From the IMG/VR virus record IMGVR_UViG_3300045116_000679, positions 1-64,000 of that record: DNA of 64,000 nucleotides; one strand, written 5' to 3'. Both the position numbers and the translations under genes were made by a program. A model generated the notes under the pieces. That model did not search any database. It saw only the letters and a program-made list of their open reading frames with translations, and was not told the origin of the DNA. This DNA comes from a virus. Every line of letters starts with the position of its first letter. Positions within the stretch are counted from its first letter, which is position 1. Shown here in pieces: positions 30,287 through 51,079 of this stretch.

Positions 30287-31727
30287 GGACGAGGCGCGCC
30301 GGATCGCGGAGGATGCCGAGCGGATCCGCGCGCGCTGCACGACGCTTCAGGGCTTCGTCCGCGAGGCGTGGCACATCCTCGAACCCCGGACGCCCTACGT
30401 CCACGGCTGGCACATCGATGCGATCTGCGACCACCTCCAGGCGGTCACTCGGGGCGAGATCAACCGGCTCCTGATCAACGTCCCGCCCGGCTCGTCCAAG
30501 AGCCTCCTCGCCTCCGTGCTCTGGCAGGCGTGGGAATGGGGCCCGGCCGGCCTCGCCTCGATGCGCTACCTGACGACGGCCTTCAACGACGGCCCGGTCA
30601 AGCGCGACACCCGCAAGGCCCGCGACCTGATCGGCTCGGACTGGTACCGGGCGCTCTGGCCGGAGGTGAGGCTGACCCGCACCGCGGAGATGAGCTTCGC
30701 CAACAGCCGGACCGGCACCCGCGAAGGAGTCGCGTTCCCCAGCCTGACGTCGCAGCGCGGCGACCGGCTCATCATCGACGACCCGCATTCGACCGAGACG
30801 GCCGAGAGCCCGGCCGAGCGGCTCAAGACCACCAGGCGGTTCCGCGAGGGCGCGGTCAACCGGCTCAACGACCAGGAGCGGAGCGCGATCGTCGTCATCA
30901 TGCAGCGCCTGCACGAGGACGACGTCTCCGGCACCATCCTCAAGCACGGCATGGGGTACACGCACCTCTGCCTGCCGATGGAGTTCGAGCCTGACCGACG
31001 GTGCGTGACCACCATCGGCTTCCGGGACCCGCGCACCGCCGCGGACGAGCTGCTCGACCCGGCCCGCTTCCCGGCGGCGACGGTCCGGCAGCTGCAGAAC
31101 GACATGGGCAGCTACGCCTACGCCGGGCAGTACCAGCAGCGGCCGGCGCCGCGCGAGGGCGGGCTGTTCAAGCGGCACTGGTTCCCGATCGAGCGCGCCG
31201 CGCCCGCCGGGTGTACCTGGGTCAGGGCGTGGGACTTGGCGGCGAGCGAGGCCAAGGCCGGGAGCCAGCCGGCCTTCACGTGCGGCCTGCGGATCGGGCG
31301 GTCACCGGCCGGCCGCTACTTCATCGACGACGTCCGCCGCGATCGGCTCTCCCCCGGCAAGGTCGAGGAGCTGATCAAGAGGACCGCCCAGCAGGATCAA
31401 GCCGCGCGGCCCGGCTGCCGGATCTCCCTGCCGCAGGACCCGGGGCAGGCCGGCAAGGCGCAGGCGCAGTACCTCGTCGGTCAGCTCGCCGGGTTCGTCG
31501 TTCGGGCCACGCCCGAGAGCGGCGACAAGGTCACCCGCGCCGAGCCCGTGTCCGCCCAGGCCGAGGCCGGCAACATCGTCCTGATCGAGGGGGCCTGGAA
31601 TGAAGCGTTTCTCGATGAGGTCTCGTCGTTTCCAAGCGGCAGCTTCAAGGATCAGGTCGACGCACTCAGCCGCGGCTTCGGTGAGCTCGCGAAGCCGGCC
31701 TACGGGCTACTAGGGGTCCTCGACTGA
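30243..31727 (+). CDS. terL: terminase large subunit
   Basis: 494 residues from MMAALRAEKARR; GTG at 30240 is an alternative start. ATPase: Walker A PPGSSKS (81-87), a TTAFND coupling strand, Walker B LIIDDP (176-181). Nuclease half: WVRAWDLAASEAK (acidic cluster start), YFIDDVRRD, FKDQVDALSRGF near the end. It cuts and pumps phage DNA into the head. The stop shares a base with the portal start. Confidence 0.92.
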   Translation: MMAALRAEKARRAREDEARRIAEDAERIRARCTTLQGFVREAWHILEPRTPYVHGWHIDAICDHLQAVTRGEINRLLINVPPGSSKSLLASVLWQAWEWGPAGLASMRYLTTAFNDGPVKRDTRKARDLIGSDWYRALWPEVRLTRTAEMSFANSRTGTREGVAFPSLTSQRGDRLIIDDPHSTETAESPAERLKTTRRFREGAVNRLNDQERSAIVVIMQRLHEDDVSGTILKHGMGYTHLCLPMEFEPDRRCVTTIGFRDPRTAADELLDPARFPAATVRQLQNDMGSYAYAGQYQQRPAPREGGLFKRHWFPIERAAPAGCTWVRAWDLAASEAKAGSQPAFTCGLRIGRSPAGRYFIDDVRRDRLSPGKVEELIKRTAQQDQAARPGCRISLPQDPGQAGKAQAQYLVGQLAGFVVRATPESGDKVTRAEPVSAQAEAGNIVLIEGAWNEAFLDEVSSFPSGSFKDQVDALSRGFGELAKPAYGLLGVLD

Positions 31728-33598
31728 TGTGGTTCGTCGACACCTTCAAGAATTTGCTCTCCGGGCTCGGGACGGCCCGGGACAAGGCGAGCGCGAATGT
31801 GCACGTCTTCGTCCCGCGCACGCCGGACCAGATCCTGGCCGCCTACCGCGGCAACTGGATCGCCCGGAAGATCGTCGACATCGTGCCCTTCGACGAGCTG
31901 CGCGAGTGGCGCGCGTGGCAGGCCAAGCCGGCCGAAGTCCAGGCGATCGAAGAGGCCGAGAAGACGCTGCGCATCCCCGAGATCCTGCTGCGCGCGCGGC
32001 GGCTCGCACGCCTTCAGGGTGGCTCGGTCATCGTCATCGGGGACGGGCAGACGGATCAGACCGTCCCGCTCGACCCGAAGCGGCTCAAGCAGGGCGGGAT
32101 CAAGTGGCTGGCCGTGTTCGGCCGCTACGAGATCACCCCCGGTGAGCCGATCCGCGACCCGGCCTCGCCCTGGTTCGGCGAGCCGAGAATGTGGGAGCTG
32201 AACACCGACGCCGGTCCTCAGCGCATCCACCCGTCCCGCGTCGTGCGTCTCGTAGGCGCCCCGATCCTCGAGGCGAACCACCTGGCGACCGAGCAGGGGT
32301 GGGGCGACAGCATCCTGCAAGCCGTCTTCGACGCCGTCGATCAGGCGACCTCGTCCGCCGGCTACGTCAACGCGATGCTGCCCGAGGCCAAGCAGGATGT
32401 GATCTTCGTCCCCGGCCTCTCGACGCACCTCTCGACGGCGGCCGGGACGGCGGCTCTGACGAAGCGGTTCGAGTACGCCGCGCAGACGAAATCCGTGCTC
32501 GGGATGCTCCTCCTAGAAGGCGATGGTCGCTCGCCGGAGGGCGAGGTCTACCAGCAGAAGCAGCTCTCGTTCACGGGTCTGCCAGACGTCGTGCGGATGT
32601 TCCTGATGATCGCCTCGGCCGCCGCGGACGTCCCGGCGACCCGGCTCCTCGGCCAGTCGCCGCAGGGGCTCAACGCGACCGGGGACTCTGACACCCGGAA
32701 CTATTACGACCACGTCGCCGCCCGGCAGAAGGTCGAGCTGACGCCCGCAATCGCGCGCCTCGACGAGTACCTGATCATCCACGCGCTCGGCACGCGCCCG
32801 CCTGAGATCTGGTACGAGTGGCGCCCCCTCTACCAGCCGAGCCTCAAGGAACGGGCCGACGCCTTCCAGACCGTCGCCAATGCCATCGGGTCGCTCGCGA
32901 CCGCGGCCGTCATGCCGGACGAGGTCCTGGCCGAGGGCGTGAAGGGCTGGGCGCAGGACAGCGGGTTGCTGCCGGGCATCGACGCCGCCTATCGGCGGGT
33001 CGGGACTCTCGTGCCGCGCCAGGGGAGCGAAGACGACCTCGGGCCGGACGGCCGGCCGATCGCCGGCAGCGGCCGGGATCCTGAGGGCGAGGACGAGCGC
33101 GGCAACGTGGTCCCCTTCCGGCGGGTCGTCGGCGACGCCACGCCGCGCACCCTCTACGTCTCGCGCAAGCTCAAGAACGGCGACGATCTGCTCGCCTGGG
33201 CGCGCAGCCAGGGCTTCACCGACCTGATGCCGGCCGGCGAGTTGCACGTCACGATCGCCTACAGCCGCACGCCGCTCGACTGGATGAAGGCCGGGCAGAC
33301 CTGGCAGGGCGAGGAGCTGAAGATCAGCGCCGGTGGCCCGCGCGTCATCGAGCGGTTCGGCGAGGCGACCGTCCTTCTGTTCGCCTCGGACGAACTACGG
33401 TGGCGCTGGCAGGAGATCCGGGACGCGGGCGCCTCGTGGGATCATCCCGAGTATCAGCCGCACGTCACCTTCACGTGGGCGGCCGGGAACGTCGATCTGT
33501 CCAAGGTCCAACCGTACAACGGTCCGCTGATTTTGGGCCCCGAGATCTTCGAACCGGTCGATGAGGACTGGCGGGCCAAGATCGAGGCCGCCGAGTAG
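31727..33598 (+). CDS. portal protein (DUF1073 type) fused to an Acb1-like anti-CBASS domain
   Basis: 623 residues. Residues 1-430 are a DUF1073-type portal: YRGNWIARKIVDIVPFD, LQGGSVIVIGDGQ, RLLGQSPQGLNATGDSD. After an acidic linker (435-462), residues 471-616 form a 2H-phosphoesterase domain with both HxT motifs, H507-V-T509 (LHVTIAYSR) and H579-V-T581 (PHVTFTW). This is the arrangement of Acb1, the phage nuclease that cleaves the cyclic nucleotides of CBASS defence. Whether the domain acts as part of the portal or after processing is not shown. Confidence 0.85.
   Translation: MWFVDTFKNLLSGLGTARDKASANVHVFVPRTPDQILAAYRGNWIARKIVDIVPFDELREWRAWQAKPAEVQAIEEAEKTLRIPEILLRARRLARLQGGSVIVIGDGQTDQTVPLDPKRLKQGGIKWLAVFGRYEITPGEPIRDPASPWFGEPRMWELNTDAGPQRIHPSRVVRLVGAPILEANHLATEQGWGDSILQAVFDAVDQATSSAGYVNAMLPEAKQDVIFVPGLSTHLSTAAGTAALTKRFEYAAQTKSVLGMLLLEGDGRSPEGEVYQQKQLSFTGLPDVVRMFLMIASAAADVPATRLLGQSPQGLNATGDSDTRNYYDHVAARQKVELTPAIARLDEYLIIHALGTRPPEIWYEWRPLYQPSLKERADAFQTVANAIGSLATAAVMPDEVLAEGVKGWAQDSGLLPGIDAAYRRVGTLVPRQGSEDDLGPDGRPIAGSGRDPEGEDERGNVVPFRRVVGDATPRTLYVSRKLKNGDDLLAWARSQGFTDLMPAGELHVTIAYSRTPLDWMKAGQTWQGEELKISAGGPRVIERFGEATVLLFASDELRWRWQEIRDAGASWDHPEYQPHVTFTWAAGNVDLSKVQPYNGPLILGPEIFEPVDEDWRAKIEAAE
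33137..33574 (+). other. Acb1-like 2H phosphoesterase domain of the portal
   Basis: Two HxT motifs 72 residues apart, in the order expected for 2H phosphoesterases, with DLMPAGELHVTIAYS and PEYQPHVTFTW flanks. Acidic Asp/Gly linker separates it from the portal. In Acb1 the HxT pair hydrolyses cyclic di- and trinucleotides. Confidence 0.75.
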
Positions 33599-46065: not shown

Positions 46066-46392
46066 TTAGGATTTAGCATCGCTGCTGTTGCCGTCTAAAA
46101 CCCCAGTGCGCTCAAGAATGCTGCGCAGATCCTTTAATAGAGCGCGCGTTACCTCTCGATTGTATTTGTTACCGTAGCTTTTATCCTTCTCGACCGAAAC
46201 GCTGATTTGATCAAGAAGGCCCGCAACAGAGTGTTGTGGCGGGAATTTCTCCTCCAACGCCTTGACAATGAGCGTGTTCATGGAAACGCCCTGCGTTTCG
46301 GCGGCCGCCGCTATGCGGTCGCGCAAGCCAGGCGGCATGCGAACCTGGAAGCGTTCGGCGAGGTCGCTCGGGAACTTGCTGTCGGGCTGCAT
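46066..46392 (-). CDS. Arc-like repressor 1 (minus strand)
   Basis: 108 residues from MQPDSKFPSDLAERFQVRMP. A ribbon-helix-helix of Arc type: strand FQVRMPPGLRDRIAAAAE followed by SMNTLIVKALEEKF. The rest (LDQISVSVEKDKSYGNKYN) is helical. It is divergent from the second Arc-like gene. The gene is much less GC-rich than its surroundings. In P22 such a pair (Mnt, Arc) controls the antirepressor; that is the likely role here. Confidence 0.75.
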   Translation of the reverse strand: MQPDSKFPSDLAERFQVRMPPGLRDRIAAAAETQGVSMNTLIVKALEEKFPPQHSVAGLLDQISVSVEKDKSYGNKYNREVTRALLKDLRSILERTGVLDGNSSDAKS

Positions 46393-46436
46393 ACCCCGTG
46401 ATGTCAAATCGCACGCACCATTTCCATGGGTGCGAG

Positions 46437-46485
46437 TTGACACCATCGCAGGTGCCGCGTAGCTTATGAGTGCGACTCGCACTCA
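46437..46485 (+). promoter_or_regulatory. promoter and operator for the second Arc-like gene
   Basis: TTGACA (46437-46442), 17-base spacer, TAGCTT (46460-46465). Overlapping the expected start is a perfect 9-bp inverted repeat TGAGTGCGA-C-TCGCACTCA (46467-46485). A second half-site with the same GTGCGA core lies at about 46431. This is where an Arc/Mnt-like protein would bind. Confidence 0.75.
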
Positions 46486-46495
46486 AGGAGATATC

Positions 46496-46693
46496 ATGTA
46501 TCCGAGCGAGGCGGCGCCAAGGCTTCTCGTCCGTCTTCCCCCTGACCTGAAAGACTTCGTTGTGAGCGAAGCGCAGCGTAACGGCTCATCGCAGAACAGT
46601 GAGGTCATTCGCGCCGTCAGGGAGCGGATGGAGCGCCAGAGGCTCCAAACGAAAGCGGCCCCGGAAGGTGCTGGAACACCCGCCGAGGCCTGA
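46496..46693 (+). CDS. Arc-like repressor 2 (plus strand)
   Basis: 65 residues, ATG with AAGGAG 5 bases before. RLLVRLPPDLKDFVVSEAQ and RNGSSQNSEVIRAVRERME form a ribbon-helix-helix like Arc. It is followed by the twin-arginine and antirepressor genes in one rightward unit. Probably regulates that unit. Confidence 0.8.
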   Translation: MYPSEAAPRLLVRLPPDLKDFVVSEAQRNGSSQNSEVIRAVRERMERQRLQTKAAPEGAGTPAEA

Positions 46694-46722: not shown

Positions 46723-47076
46723 ATGGCCTGCACCAAGTCTACCACAGGTCCCGTGACCCGCGCCATCCAGGCGATGCGCAACGATACCCCCACCCTCATC
46801 GTCCCGCGCCGTGGGTTCATCGCGAGAGCGCTCGGCTTCACGGCCGCAGGCGCCGCGCTGAGCGTGCCGGTGCTGGCGGTCGAGACGCCGGCCGACCGCA
46901 TCGCCTACCACCGCGCCGAACTCGAGAAGGCATTCCGCGAGTACTACGCCAGCGCACCAGTGATCGTGCGGAGCAACGACCTCACGCGCGAGTACTTGCT
47001 GGAGCGTCAGCCGACCAGCGTGGCGTGCCTGATGTTCATGGCGGGGCCGGTCGAGGTTCAGGGAGGTCGGGCATGA
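46723..47076 (+). CDS. protein with a twin-arginine-like signal
   Basis: 117 residues. IVPRRGFIARALGFTAAGAA is a twin-arginine signal-like start, with RRGFI followed by a hydrophobic stretch and ALSVPVLAVE. The rest (ELEKAFREYYASAPVIV) is short and helical. Its location between Arc-like repressor and antirepressor genes is unusual. ATGA overlap with the antirepressor. Confidence 0.5.
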   Translation: MACTKSTTGPVTRAIQAMRNDTPTLIVPRRGFIARALGFTAAGAALSVPVLAVETPADRIAYHRAELEKAFREYYASAPVIVRSNDLTREYLLERQPTSVACLMFMAGPVEVQGGRA

Positions 47077-47636
47077 CTGAACTCGTTACCGTTCCCTTCC
47101 ATGGCGACACGCTGTTTTGCGCTCGCGAGGAGCGGCGGATCGGCGTCGCAATCAAGCCCATCTCGGACCGACTCGGCCTCTCGTGGTCGGGGCAGTACGA
47201 GCGCCTCAACCGCGATCCGATCCTCGCCGAGGGTATTCGCGTAACACGAATGCCTTCGGTGGGCGGCGAGCAGGAGACCGTGACCCTCGACCTTCCGCTT
47301 CTGCCCGGGTGGCTGTTCGGGGTCAGCGTGAAGCGGGTCAGGGCCGAGTGCCGCGAGGCGGTGCTCCTCTACCAGCGCCGCTGCCACGACGTGCTCCATC
47401 GGCACTTCTTCGGCGGCGAGGAAGGGAGGGCCGTCGTGGCCACTGCTCCACACCCTGCCCATGAGGAGCCGATGCGGGTTCGCCGCCAACTCGTGACCGA
47501 GGCTCGCCAGACCTTCGGGGTTCGGGCGGCGGGCAGTCTGTGGTTTGCTCTCGGCTTGCCGGTCGTCCCCGAGATGCACGAGCCGCCCCGGCAGGGCGAC
47601 TTCGGATTTACCTACACGGCGCGGCCGCTGCCGTAG
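47073..47636 (+). CDS. phage antirepressor (P22 Ant N-terminal type)
   Basis: 187 residues. Residues 1-115 form the P22_AR_N domain: VPFHGDTLFCAREERRIGVA, IKPISDRLGLSWSGQYERL, LPLLPGWLFGVSVKRVRAEC. Antirepressors inactivate the prophage repressor and trigger or permit lytic growth. Together with the two Arc-like proteins it reproduces the P22 immI arrangement. Confidence 0.85.
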   Translation: MTELVTVPFHGDTLFCAREERRIGVAIKPISDRLGLSWSGQYERLNRDPILAEGIRVTRMPSVGGEQETVTLDLPLLPGWLFGVSVKRVRAECREAVLLYQRRCHDVLHRHFFGGEEGRAVVATAPHPAHEEPMRVRRQLVTEARQTFGVRAAGSLWFALGLPVVPEMHEPPRQGDFGFTYTARPLP

Positions 47637-47778: not shown

Positions 47779-48534
47779 ATGGCAAAGAAGACCGAAGACA
47801 CTGCCGAGATCAGCATCGTTCCCCTGCGCCGCGGCTCGGTTCGGCTGCGGATCATCGGACAGACGCCGTTGTTCCAGAACAGAATGGCGAACAAAGCCAA
47901 GCAGCAGCTGCTGGTCGGCGGCCAGAGAAAGAGCAAGGCCGATCGCGCTCAGATCAAGCACAACCCGCTGCAGGAGTACCGCGACAGCGCCGAGATCCTG
48001 CCGGCCGGACCGACCGCTCTTGGTCTGCGTGTCGTCGCGGTGAAGGCGGCCATGGCGACGGCCGCCCTGGAGACGCCCGGGCTCACGAAAACGTCGGCAC
48101 AGCGGCTGATCTTCATGCCGGGCGATCATGTTCCTCTCTACGGTACGCCGCAGCTTCGTATGGATGTGGTCCGGTCTGCCGACATCAATAGAACGCCAGA
48201 CGTGCGCACCCGGTGCTTCCTTCCGAAATGGGGCGCAGAAGTTGAGGTGCAGTTCATCGTCCCGCAGCTCTCGGTAATTTCTGTTGTGTCGCTCCTCTGC
48301 AACGCCGGCGTTCTGGTCGGGGTGGGCGATTATAGACAAGAGAAAGGCAAGGGCGCCTTCGGCAGCTTCCGAGTGCTCGGCGAGGGCGAAGACGATGACG
48401 AGTGGGACGACCTCGTTGCGAACCACGGGCGTGCCGCCCAGGAAGCCGCGCTCGCTGACCCAGCTTATGCGGACACCGACACTCGTGACCTGATGGAGTT
48501 CTTCCACGCCGAGACCAAGCGGAGGGCTGCCTGA
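47779..48534 (+). CDS. unknown phage protein with RAMP-like layout
   Basis: 251 residues. VRLRIIGQTPLFQNRMANKA, then VRTRCFLPKWGAEVEVQFIV and LVGVGDYRQEKGKGAFGSFR near the end. A beta-rich body with a Gly-rich loop before GSFRV recalls RAMP/Cas7-like RNA-binding proteins and a phage family I have seen with a 'TPLL.N' start. This resemblance is by eye and weak. The central part (about 48180-48330) is AT-richer. TGATG overlap with the next gene. Confidence 0.5.
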   Translation: MAKKTEDTAEISIVPLRRGSVRLRIIGQTPLFQNRMANKAKQQLLVGGQRKSKADRAQIKHNPLQEYRDSAEILPAGPTALGLRVVAVKAAMATAALETPGLTKTSAQRLIFMPGDHVPLYGTPQLRMDVVRSADINRTPDVRTRCFLPKWGAEVEVQFIVPQLSVISVVSLLCNAGVLVGVGDYRQEKGKGAFGSFRVLGEGEDDDEWDDLVANHGRAAQEAALADPAYADTDTRDLMEFFHAETKRRAA

Positions 48535-49040
48535 TGGCCAAGTTCACCAAGGCGCTCCGCCAGCAGATCGTCCAGGAGTTTGCGACCCGTCACAACGGCC
48601 GCTTCAACCCGGAAAGGTTCGTGGAGGAGGTGCGCCGGAAGGGCGCGAGCCATCCGGCCTACGAGTGGTTCGAGTGGGACCGGAACCGTGCGGCCCTGCA
48701 ATGGCAGATCGAGCAGGCGCGCGAGTTCGCTCGCGACCTGCGGATCGTTTTTACAGTCGAGGAGGTCGGGCGCCGCAAGCCGATCACGGTCAACACGGCC
48801 ATGCCGATGGTGCTGTCGCCCGTGAACGAGCGGAAGGCCGGCGGTGGGTACTATCTGGTCGATCCGGCCGATCCAGCGCACCTCGCCGAGCACTGTCGGC
48901 AGGCAGCCACCGCTCTGCGGGCGTGGCTCGGCCGGTACGAGGCGGCGGTCCGCCACTCCGGCACGACGCCAGAGGCGATCAACAGGATGGTGACGGCGCT
49001 TGAGGCCGTGGCCCCACCCGCGGAGCCGGAAGCGGCATGA
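48534..49040 (+). CDS. unknown phage protein, partner of the previous gene
   Basis: 168 residues: KFTKALRQQIVQEFATRHNG, AYEWFEWDRNRAALQWQIEQ, ARDLRIVFTVEEVGR, ending in a helical, Ala-rich tail. The 'EWD..KAA..YR..QAR' type motif recurs in phage proteins encoded next to the family above. No biochemical role known. Confidence 0.55.
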   Translation: MAKFTKALRQQIVQEFATRHNGRFNPERFVEEVRRKGASHPAYEWFEWDRNRAALQWQIEQAREFARDLRIVFTVEEVGRRKPITVNTAMPMVLSPVNERKAGGGYYLVDPADPAHLAEHCRQAATALRAWLGRYEAAVRHSGTTPEAINRMVTALEAVAPPAEPEAA

Positions 49041-49463
49041 ACGAGACGGGCGAGCCGGCTCTTGCCTTGCCCGGCTCGGCGGATGGCGCGGAAAGGCAGG
49101 CATGGCACGGCAAGGACTGACGCGGCTAGGGCAGTTCTGGAGCGGCGAGACGCGGCAGGCGAGGCGCGGACTGGCCGGGAGTGTTAAGGCAAGGCCTGGC
49201 CAGGCGAGGCGCTTCTCGGCAGGCGAGGCTGGGAGTGACCAGCCGGGGTCAGGTGTGGCCAGACTAGGCAGGTAAGTTGCGTAGCGCTGAGCCGGTTGCC
49301 CAACCGGCTGGCGGGGATCACGGCAGGGCAGGCGGGGTACGGCCCGACTTGGCGCGGCGAGCATTGGAAGGCATCGTCAGGCAAGCCTGGCGCGAACAGG
49401 CATGGAGAGGCCAGGTGCGGCGGGGCCAGTAATGGCGTGGCCGGGCGAGTCCAGGCAGGCAAA
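49041..49463 (+). repeat. low-complexity GGC/AGGC-rich stretch without a clear gene
   Basis: About 420 bases made of AGGC, GGC and ATGGC-like units, strongly G-rich on the plus strand. CAGGCGAGGC occurs three times (49156, 49201, 49220). ORFs here translate to Arg/Gly/Ala-rich low-complexity peptides (for example ARQGLTRLGQFWSGETRQAR) and are not convincing genes. It could give a repetitive RNA. Confidence 0.6.
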
Positions 49464-49491
49464 GGAAGAGGCGGTGCGACCCGCCTCTTCC
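49464..49491. terminator. strong hairpin, probable bidirectional terminator
   Basis: Perfect 11-bp stem GGAAGAGGCGG / CCGCCTCTTCC with a 6-base loop. It ends the low-complexity stretch from one side and lies 14 bases after the stop of the secreted-protein gene on the other. T runs are short on both strands. Confidence 0.6.
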
Positions 49492-49505
49492 TCCCTTGTG
49501 CTTCG

Positions 49506-49961
49506 CTAGGCTTGGCACGCGCTGATCATCTTGTCATACAACCTATTCGCTCCAGCCATATTAATATCTTCATTTATGATGCCGCCAACAAAAGTTAGCG
49601 TCTGGAATCGAAGTCGCCTAGCAGTTAGTGCTGCTGAAAACTCTTGACCGGTAAACTCTAATATTCCTGACCGTTCTTCTGCGCGCGATGGAAGCCTCAT
49701 TCCGCTTGAGGCGGCATCATCAATCCTATATTCGTATCCCTTTAGTCCACCACGATTTGTGTAAATGATATATAGGGCACCTCTCGATATCTGAACGGTG
49801 GTATTGCCTTTGGGGGTGAGAACACAGGTTGTTTTGTCCGAGAAACTGTCAACGGTTCTTCTCATCTCCCAAGCGCCGTCCCGCGCCACTACAGGCCCTA
49901 GTCCCTGTGCTTGTGCGGAAGCGCTGATCACAGTCGCCGCGACCACCAAAGCCAATCTCAT
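49506..49961 (-). CDS. secreted protein, probable lysogenic-conversion gene
   Basis: 151 residues from MRLALVVAATVISASAQAQG, a Sec signal peptide with cleavage after AQA; a strong ribosome site GGGAGGGG precedes the ATG. The mature part has beta strands (ALYIIYTNRGGLKGYEYR, LRFQTLTFVGGIINED) and one Cys pair (TTCVL, SACQA). AT-richer than the phage. It stands alone on the minus strand with a terminator, typical of a moron. Confidence 0.65.
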   Translation of the reverse strand: MRLALVVAATVISASAQAQGLGPVVARDGAWEMRRTVDSFSDKTTCVLTPKGNTTVQISRGALYIIYTNRGGLKGYEYRIDDAASSGMRLPSRAEERSGILEFTGQEFSAALTARRLRFQTLTFVGGIINEDINMAGANRLYDKMISACQA

Positions 49962-50109
49962 CAACCCCTCCCTGACTCCCGCCCCATCTGGCGCGCGCAG
50001 GTCTGAGGGCAACACCAAGGCCAAGCACACGGAGAGGGTCGACGAGGGCGCATCGGAGGGCGTCGCAAACCCAACCCGGCTTGCGTATATTGTGCCACGG
50101 AGGCGAACC
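49962..50109. other. divergent control region
   Basis: Between the secreted-protein gene and the Fic module. A TATATT box at 50086-50091 could serve the rightward unit; the -35 (TCGCAA at 50063) is weak. Confidence 0.35.
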
Positions 50110-50694
50110 ATGGGCTTTGCGGCGCTGGCCGAGACACTGGATCGATATGCGGATCTGCCAGACGTGTCGTCCCTCGCGCCGGCGTTTCGCGACAAGGCGG
50201 ATCTGGACGGTATCGCTCGGGACGTCCGCAGAGTTGATCAAGCCATGCTGGCGCTGCGCCTCCAGTTCGGTAATTATGAAGCCGCACTAAATAGTATAAT
50301 TGCAAATGAATTCGATCATCTGAGCTACGAAGAAGCAAAAAAATTCGTCGATAGTATTGAGGATCTTAATCGTTCTCGCAAAGAATGGCGCGAGCGAATG
50401 GATGCTAGCTTCAATGCGGAAATGACGAGTGTTATGCCGCTTGTTGAGGCCATCCCAAAGTACGCGCGAAAGCAAATCCGTAAACATCTCAAAATCATGG
50501 CGGACGCTAGAACGAGAACGGCAACGCGCAGCGTCCAACTAGAGCATACCGTCGCCGGCATCTGTGAGGAGTTGCGGTCGAGATTGGAGGTCAGGGCCGC
50601 CGAGAAGGCTCGGGCCGAAAGAACGAAGCACGACGCTCTCTTCGAGCGCTCCATCGCCCGCTTCCCGGTGATCACGGACTACCTTGCCCGCTGA
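50110..50694 (+). CDS. unknown protein, probable partner of the Fic/Doc toxin
   Basis: 194 residues, ATG with GGAGG 6 bases before. Long helices: FRDKADLDGIARDVRRVDQA, EEAKKFVDSIEDLNRSRKEW, ARKQIRKHLKIMADARTRT. It is not a Phd/AbrB-type antitoxin and has no DNA-binding fold that I can see. It overlaps the Fic/Doc gene by 11 bases, as antitoxin-toxin pairs do. Part of the gene is AT-rich. Its antitoxin role is inference. Confidence 0.55.
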   Translation: MGFAALAETLDRYADLPDVSSLAPAFRDKADLDGIARDVRRVDQAMLALRLQFGNYEAALNSIIANEFDHLSYEEAKKFVDSIEDLNRSRKEWRERMDASFNAEMTSVMPLVEAIPKYARKQIRKHLKIMADARTRTATRSVQLEHTVAGICEELRSRLEVRAAEKARAERTKHDALFERSIARFPVITDYLAR

Positions 50695-51079
50695 TCCTGT
50701 CGAGCCCGAGTGGTTCACCGCCGACCAGATCGAGCGCCTGAACGAGTTGCTGGTCGCGCAGACCGGCGAGAACCACGTCGTGCTCAGCCGCTCCCTGCTT
50801 GAGGGGGCGGTCGCCCGGCCACAGAACCTCTGGGCCTACGAGGGCGTGACGGATCTGGTGATCCTGGCCGTCCGCCTCCTCGAAGGGATAGGCAAGAACC
50901 ACTGCTTCGAGCAGGGCAACAAGCGCACCGCCTTCCACGCCGCCGTCGCCTTCCTCGACCTGAATGGGTCTCCGGTCGATCTGCCGGATACCGAAGCGAA
51001 TGCGGCCCTGATCCGAGACCTCATCGTCGGCCAAGTGGACGCATCCCGCGTCGAATCTGTCTTTAAAGCGGCAATCTAA
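50684..51079 (+). CDS. Fic/Doc-family toxin-like protein
   Basis: 131 residues from a TTG start that overlaps the upstream gene. The Fic motif is H73-CFEQ-GNKR81-TAF, close to the Doc form HxFxxGNKR. EGVTDLVILAVRLLEGIG and FLDLNGSPVDLPDTEANAAL follow as in Doc. Doc phosphorylates EF-Tu and stops translation; Fic members AMP-ylate proteins. Inside a phage it may enforce maintenance or limit other phages. Confidence 0.8.
   Translation: MPADPVEPEWFTADQIERLNELLVAQTGENHVVLSRSLLEGAVARPQNLWAYEGVTDLVILAVRLLEGIGKNHCFEQGNKRTAFHAAVAFLDLNGSPVDLPDTEANAALIRDLIVGQVDASRVESVFKAAI

Follow-up and report, generated by a model that had tools for sequence, protein, structure and literature searches.

Introduction

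The closest described counterpart of the locus reported here is VIPR (Viral Interference Programmable Repeat), presented in a 2026 bioRxiv preprint (PMC13142463), the only VIPR paper found in our literature search. The system is carried mainly by phages and prophages and consists of the RAMP protein Vipr, a vap gene and vrRNAs of 9–16 YNNGG repeats; double-stranded DNA is recognized by the NN pairs of these RNAs, which skip one base at each step. Both repression and the restriction of phages by VIPR were demonstrated in Escherichia coli, binding of repetitive phage RNA by Vipr was shown experimentally for the SUSP1 and Pseudomonas fulva systems, and vap1 strengthens protection in SUSP1; seven types have been published, with the SUSP1 and P. 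fulva prophage systems assigned to type II (PMC13142463). As an RNA-guided principle, VIPR has only recently been described; it may be ancestral to CRISPR and has hitherto been characterized mainly in two gammaproteobacterial phage systems.

Here we analyse a locus in a 64,000-nt stretch of an IMG/VR virus record (IMGVR_UViG_3300045116_000679, positions 1–64,000; hereafter, the window), which also contains terminase, portal, head and tail genes. As in the SUSP1 and P. fulva systems, this is a phage-borne two-gene locus encoding a putative RAMP-fold Vipr with a Gly-rich loop, and it shares with VIPR an alternating GGY/NN array and, judging by the guides of its relatives, the one-base-skip code with the wobble position skipped and targets in competing phages. 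We conclude with high confidence that the locus is a VIPR system, composed of a Vipr RAMP protein, a Vap-like accessory protein and a downstream array that would give rise to + strand vrRNA guides. The original prediction had taken the module for a candidate undescribed system and had anticipated that a protein binding a repetitive phage RNA would be new. The system belongs, instead, to the published VIPR systems; such binding is what the preprint reports for SUSP1 and P. fulva (PMC13142463), in line with the idea of an RNA-binding protein, whereas the claim of novelty is not supported. What the locus and its relatives add is an extension of VIPR to a distinct alphaproteobacterial phage clade.

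Organization of the locus

The two genes lie on the + strand and overlap at TGATG, where the vipr stop meets the start of the partner gene (Table 1). The 420 bases that follow had been described as AGGC-type units without a real gene; the open reading frames over this stretch are, indeed, of low complexity only, but the unit is a different one, namely, GGY followed by NN, 5 nt in total. The period-5 autocorrelation of the stretch, 0.459, exceeds that of dinucleotide shuffles (0.307; z = 7). The signal returns at distances 10, 15 and 20, with nearby distances, for example 6 and 7, being depleted, and the best two period-5 windows in the entire 64 kb are located here, at 49091 (z 6.7) and 49321 (z 5.0). 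Neither Tandem Repeats Finder nor a repeat search detected the array in the window, because the NN positions vary, and the Rfam scan of the window matched a tRNA alone.

The arrays were parsed with a hidden Markov model (HMM) with the phases G-G-Y-N-N, in which guide borders appear as a one-base slip, GGCA|GGC. In the window, this parse yields guides of 11 (A), 12 (B), 9 (C), 7 (D) and 11 (F) NN pairs and one block of about 5. GGCAGGC separators at 49095–49101 and 49154–49160 flank guide A, and the latter, together with that at 49218–49224, flanks guide B; read as codons, the two guides correspond to [IM]T[NK]LAY[HQ]LA[DE]A and [DE]ALRV[NK][NK]L[HQ][DE]AS, respectively. The GGY scaffold is degenerate in spots (GGA, GAC, GTT, TTC), and the block at approximately 49366–49401 is irregular. 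The closing hairpin that had been noted at the end of the array is present, albeit with 12 rather than 11 bp (arms 49463–49474 and 49481–49492; folding z = −4.0 on the + strand and −4.8 on the − strand), and a − strand ORF, 49506–50195, converges on it. The hairpin ahead of sub-array 1 is no more stable than shuffled sequences and is put forward by analogy with the covarying hairpin at 49290–49309.

Table 1. Features of the VIPR-like locus (positions in the 64,000-nt window).
Feature	Position	Strand	Description or basis
vipr	47779..48534	+	251-aa predicted RAMP (Cas7/Csm3-fold) protein, Gly-rich loop GVGDYRQEKGKGAFGSF
vap-like partner gene	48534..49040	+	168 aa; 21 aligned sequences
Candidate upstream hairpin CGAGCCGG...CCGGCTCG, ahead of sub-array 1	49051..49078	+	by sequence
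vrRNA-like sub-array 1, GGY-NN repeats, three guides	49083..49272	+	HMM parse; period-5 autocorrelation
Guide A	49102..49153	+	AT AC AA CT GC TA CA CT GC GA GC
Guide B	49161..49217	+	GA GC CT CG GT AA AA CT CA GA GC TC
Guide C	49225..49266	+	GA TG GT CA GG CA GT CA TA
Hairpin AGCCGGTT-GCCC-AACCGGCT, then conserved GATCACGGC..GGCAGGC	49290..49309	+	covariation with relatives
vrRNA-like sub-array 2: guide D, short degenerate block, guide F	49319..49465	+	HMM parse
Guide D	49334..49365	+	GG AC CC TT GC GA TT; within sub-array 2
Guide F	49402..49453	+	AT GA CA GC GG CA AT GT CG GA CA
12-bp terminator-like hairpin AGGAAGAGGCGG/CCGCCTCTTCCT, array end	49463..49492	.	folding

Vipr and its partner protein

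The vipr product (P0001) matches nothing in Pfam, NCBIfam or PADLOC and is assigned, as are all 25 relatives (25/25), to phrog_4652, a family annotated 'unknown function'. In a single phmmer search, the SUSP1 Vipr chain 36pp_D was among the weak matches (E 0.13), and a profile built from the 25 relatives matched the same chain in the PDB at E 4.3e-4. The similarity lies mainly in the G-loop half of the protein, over the stretch that runs up to the Gly-rich loop. This loop is almost invariant across the 25 relatives, and its residues 181–193 are poorly ordered in the AlphaFold2 model obtained from the relatives' alignment (pLDDT 80, pTM 0.74); a single-sequence model was unusable (pLDDT 33). 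Among the Foldseek matches listed against the PDB, nearly all are Csm3/Cas7-type RAMPs, those from VIA-align point the same way (best Z 8.5), and one BFVD match carries the annotation 'Cas system-associated RAMP superfamily protein'. Structural Z scores of about 7–8 are modest if taken alone; it is the uniformity of the structural match list combined with the sequence match to Vipr that argues for the RAMP/Vipr identity. Sequence profile and model thus support a RAMP/Cas7-like first protein homologous to SUSP1 Vipr, as the original prediction had proposed by eye, and the structure prediction that it had suggested as a check returned a Csm3/Cas7-type RAMP fold.

The partner protein falls into phrog_15946 in 20 of the 21 sequences, again a family annotated 'unknown function', and matches neither any family of known function nor any entry in PADLOC. 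Its gene is kept in nearly all Vipr-bearing relatives, although it was not recognized in three loci (L030–L032).

Recurrence and array structure in relatives

Vipr relatives with 43–86% identity were found at 40 loci, 34 of them on viral contigs and 6 in species genomes, the latter including those of Microvirga, Bradyrhizobium, Methylobacterium and two uncultured alphaproteobacteria. The three-part arrangement, for which a search in other phages had been proposed, recurs throughout: the strongest period-5 stretch is located just past vipr or the partner gene in 22 of the 22 non-redundant loci, beginning in each case 0.7–1.7 kb from the vipr start, and several loci carry an extra array between the two genes. 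Across the arrays of the window and its relatives, the phase composition is G 0.90, G 0.75 and Y 0.85, followed by two mixed positions, and the guides comprise approximately 7–12 NN pairs between one-base slips. In close relatives, array blocks have been retained, relocated or deleted against a background of similar or identical vipr and partner genes, and the array therefore behaves as a set of modules. In three loci (L018, L022 and L024), for instance, array blocks that are 90–97% identical are nevertheless reordered, with vipr and the partner gene being 81–91% identical. A more distant Vipr-like match (L075:3480-3719, 29% identity, E 3e-4) was observed in a phage contig retrieved via a DnaB-type helicase.

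The second hairpin of the window, followed by GATCACGGC..GGCAGGC, stands before arrays in the window and in six relatives, and in four loci (L002, L006, L029 and L036) the covarying hairpin precedes the first downstream array. In an alignment of the window hairpin with seven from relatives, compensatory changes occur in 7 of the 8 pairs and 96.7% of the cells are paired, versus 77.4% in shuffles (0/500) and at most 44% in slid versions, the eight hairpins having been excised and aligned by hand, a choice that favours structure. The structured 3′ tail of type II vrRNAs was not found. Several of the relatives' arrays end with strong hairpins, some with T runs, which by eye resemble intrinsic terminators. 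Two features appear to set the alphaproteobacterial clade apart from the SUSP1 and P. fulva systems as described in the preprint: several guides are joined by GGCA|GGC slip separators, and a covarying hairpin is seen before the arrays rather than a demonstrated 3′ tail.

Targets of the guides

We compared 149 unique guides with phage DNA at skips of 0–3 bases, using guides with shuffled NN order as the null. Against the DNA of near relatives there was a slight excess at skip 1, with 13 guides at E < 0.1 versus 5.3 in the null, and matching at skip 0 was no better than with shuffled guides. Skip-3 matches from a separate comparison were dropped, as they proved to be duplicate copies of the arrays themselves. 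The second target set consisted of phages retrieved through an unrelated gene, the DnaB-type helicase of the window, and among these one guide (L004:5623-5678) stood out, with an in-frame 20/22 match to a GpA terminase gene in L051. Independently of this match, its 20-base skip-1 pattern has seven exact matches in the viral collection, all within the GpA large-terminase motif GVDTAK[DE]AIYA, and that of a second guide (L036:6572-6622, 18 bases) has 36 matches, located in the portal motif DIRNYYDHI when in frame; the in-frame counts, 7/7 and 32/36, sample the same conserved families more than once and do not represent independent observations. The portal guide matches the window's own portal gene at 16/20 and had no match in 48 Microvirga genomes.

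A further guide from the first of these arrays (L004:5515-5573) matches the tape-measure genes of 4 of 110 Methylobacterium genomes with 2–3 mismatches, compared with none for the reversed control. No other guide had been used to retrieve the matched prophages. In one of them, the same tape-measure gene is also matched (17/18) by the guide that follows in the array, and an earlier guide matches a tail-tube gene (13/14), a match that is weaker alone. Among these prophages, guide L025:5469-5557 also matches the DUF5906 primase VPAGKDERRFCVLDV at 30/34 (E 8e-9), the best match of a guide family from other arrays (the L013–L026 group). At skips of 0, 2 or 3, or with shuffled NN, no guide reached E < 1e-3 in the Methylobacterium prophages. 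One prophage type (L204–L206 and L209–L211, Methylobacterium) is matched by guides from two groups of VIPR arrays, in the tail-tube and tape-measure genes by the L004 array and in the primase gene by the L022/L025 group, and, from these sequence matches, looks like a common enemy of VIPR arrays.

All six decoded guides are mRNA-sense and in frame, and the base passed over is the wobble base of the codon; the in-frame bias is partly a matter of ascertainment. The 9–17 dinucleotides of these guides spell codon positions 1 and 2 of conserved phage motifs, which argues for the one-base-skip code, and by sequence the relatives' guides appear to conform to noncontiguous recognition with 1 nt skipped. 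They thereby provide independent, annotation-blind support for this code and reveal the genes under attack, namely, those for proteins of rival phages that serve in packaging, portal, tail and replication, at conserved motifs. In this respect, too, the clade differs from the SUSP1 and P. fulva systems, for which the preprint describes satellites and lysogeny regulators as targets: the targets of the relatives are mostly late genes (terminase, portal and tail) plus primase.

The window's own guides were searched in approximately 110 Methylobacterium genomes (A, B and F), 397 order-level genomes (B) and the viral collection (A and B, exact patterns), and no confident target emerged for guides A, B, C, D or F. 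The exact 10-NN patterns of guides A and B had no match in the viral collection. Guide B had none in 109 Methylobacterium genomes and a single match with three mismatches, about the number expected by chance, in the 397 genomes, in an ORF with no sign of phage origin. Guide A yielded a 19/22 in-frame match to a KilAC antirepressor gene of Methylobacterium pseudosasicola (L181:1411-2136, − strand; peptide ITKLALLLVEA), which we regard as a lead only, considering that the reversed control gave three matches and that homologues match no better. Guide F had 27 matches at three mismatches versus 0 for the controls (109 genomes); the eight inspected were scattered, several of them antisense to longer ORFs, and none is claimed as a target.

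Proposed mechanism and alternative explanations

For the window locus, we infer transcription, complex formation, DNA binding, repression and target identity by homology. Transcription of the array on the + strand would produce vrRNA guides, and, by extension of the SUSP1 work, the RNA would be covered by Vipr subunits, each of which holds one GGY and exposes one NN. The exposed NN pairs would then bind double-stranded DNA on its template strand in the pattern NN-x-NN-x, passing over one target base at each step, and the complex would block transcription of the genes of competing phages. The likeliest action is a transcription block of the late and replication genes of rival phages. Since the skipped base corresponds to the wobble position, a guide directed against an invariant protein motif would be broad in spectrum, and silent mutations would offer little escape from it.

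Several other explanations deserve consideration. The stretch could be a decayed or neutral low-complexity tract adjacent to a phage RNA-binding protein and devoid of guide function, which would fit the imperfect GGY of the window and the lack of a convincing target for any of its guides; yet loci with Vipr identities of 43–86% retain the periodicity and the slip separators as well as the hairpin and the closing hairpin, and the guide with exact terminase matches is embedded in a GGY scaffold as degenerate as that of the window, which makes a neutral tract very unlikely. That the targets lie in coding sequence and in frame might suggest that the guides are antisense RNAs against the mRNAs of rival phages. 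However, the sense orientation of all six decoded guides implies pairing with the template DNA strand, not with the message, and thus favours DNA over mRNA targeting, and binding of double-stranded DNA has been demonstrated for SUSP1 VIPR (PMC13142463); antisense action is, consequently, exceedingly improbable. A CRISPR reading, in which the protein would be a class 1 subunit and the spacers of an aberrant CRISPR array would be contiguous, has next to no chance of being correct. The nearest fold is, admittedly, that of Csm3/Cas7, the class 1 backbone subunits with which Vipr shares an RRM/RAMP fold with a Gly-rich loop, but the window contains no CRISPR-size direct repeats, neither protein matches the PADLOC defence library, contiguous matching is not above that of shuffled guides, and the guide is a 5-nt alternating array.

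Within the VIPR interpretation, the NN composition of the 149 unique guides resembles that of codon positions 1 and 2, with a purine-rich first base, a G-poor second base and depletion of TA and AG. This could reflect frame- and strand-aware guide acquisition that copies codon positions 1 and 2 at conserved sense-strand motifs, in which case one guide would cover many diverged phages despite synonymous changes. We consider such acquisition unlikely; plain selection and ascertainment are the likelier source of the in-frame sense bias, because it is the in-frame guides alone that keep matching homologues after divergence.

Genomic neighbourhood

Just upstream of vipr are two divergent ORFs for Arc/HicB-type ribbon-helix-helix regulators (46066–46482, − strand, and 46466–46693, + strand) and a P22-type antirepressor gene (47076–47636), whereas a Fic/Doc-like toxin gene (50684–51079, + strand) lies between the array region and a 1717-aa ORF of tape-measure size. 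A homologue search with one of the window's tail genes found none. In the portal protein (31727–33598, + strand; PF06381, E 9.5e-114), a domain at the C-terminus (residues 474–617) matches the anti-CBASS protein Acb1 (PF23474, E 3.9e-44), and the protein is possibly a portal–Acb1 fusion.
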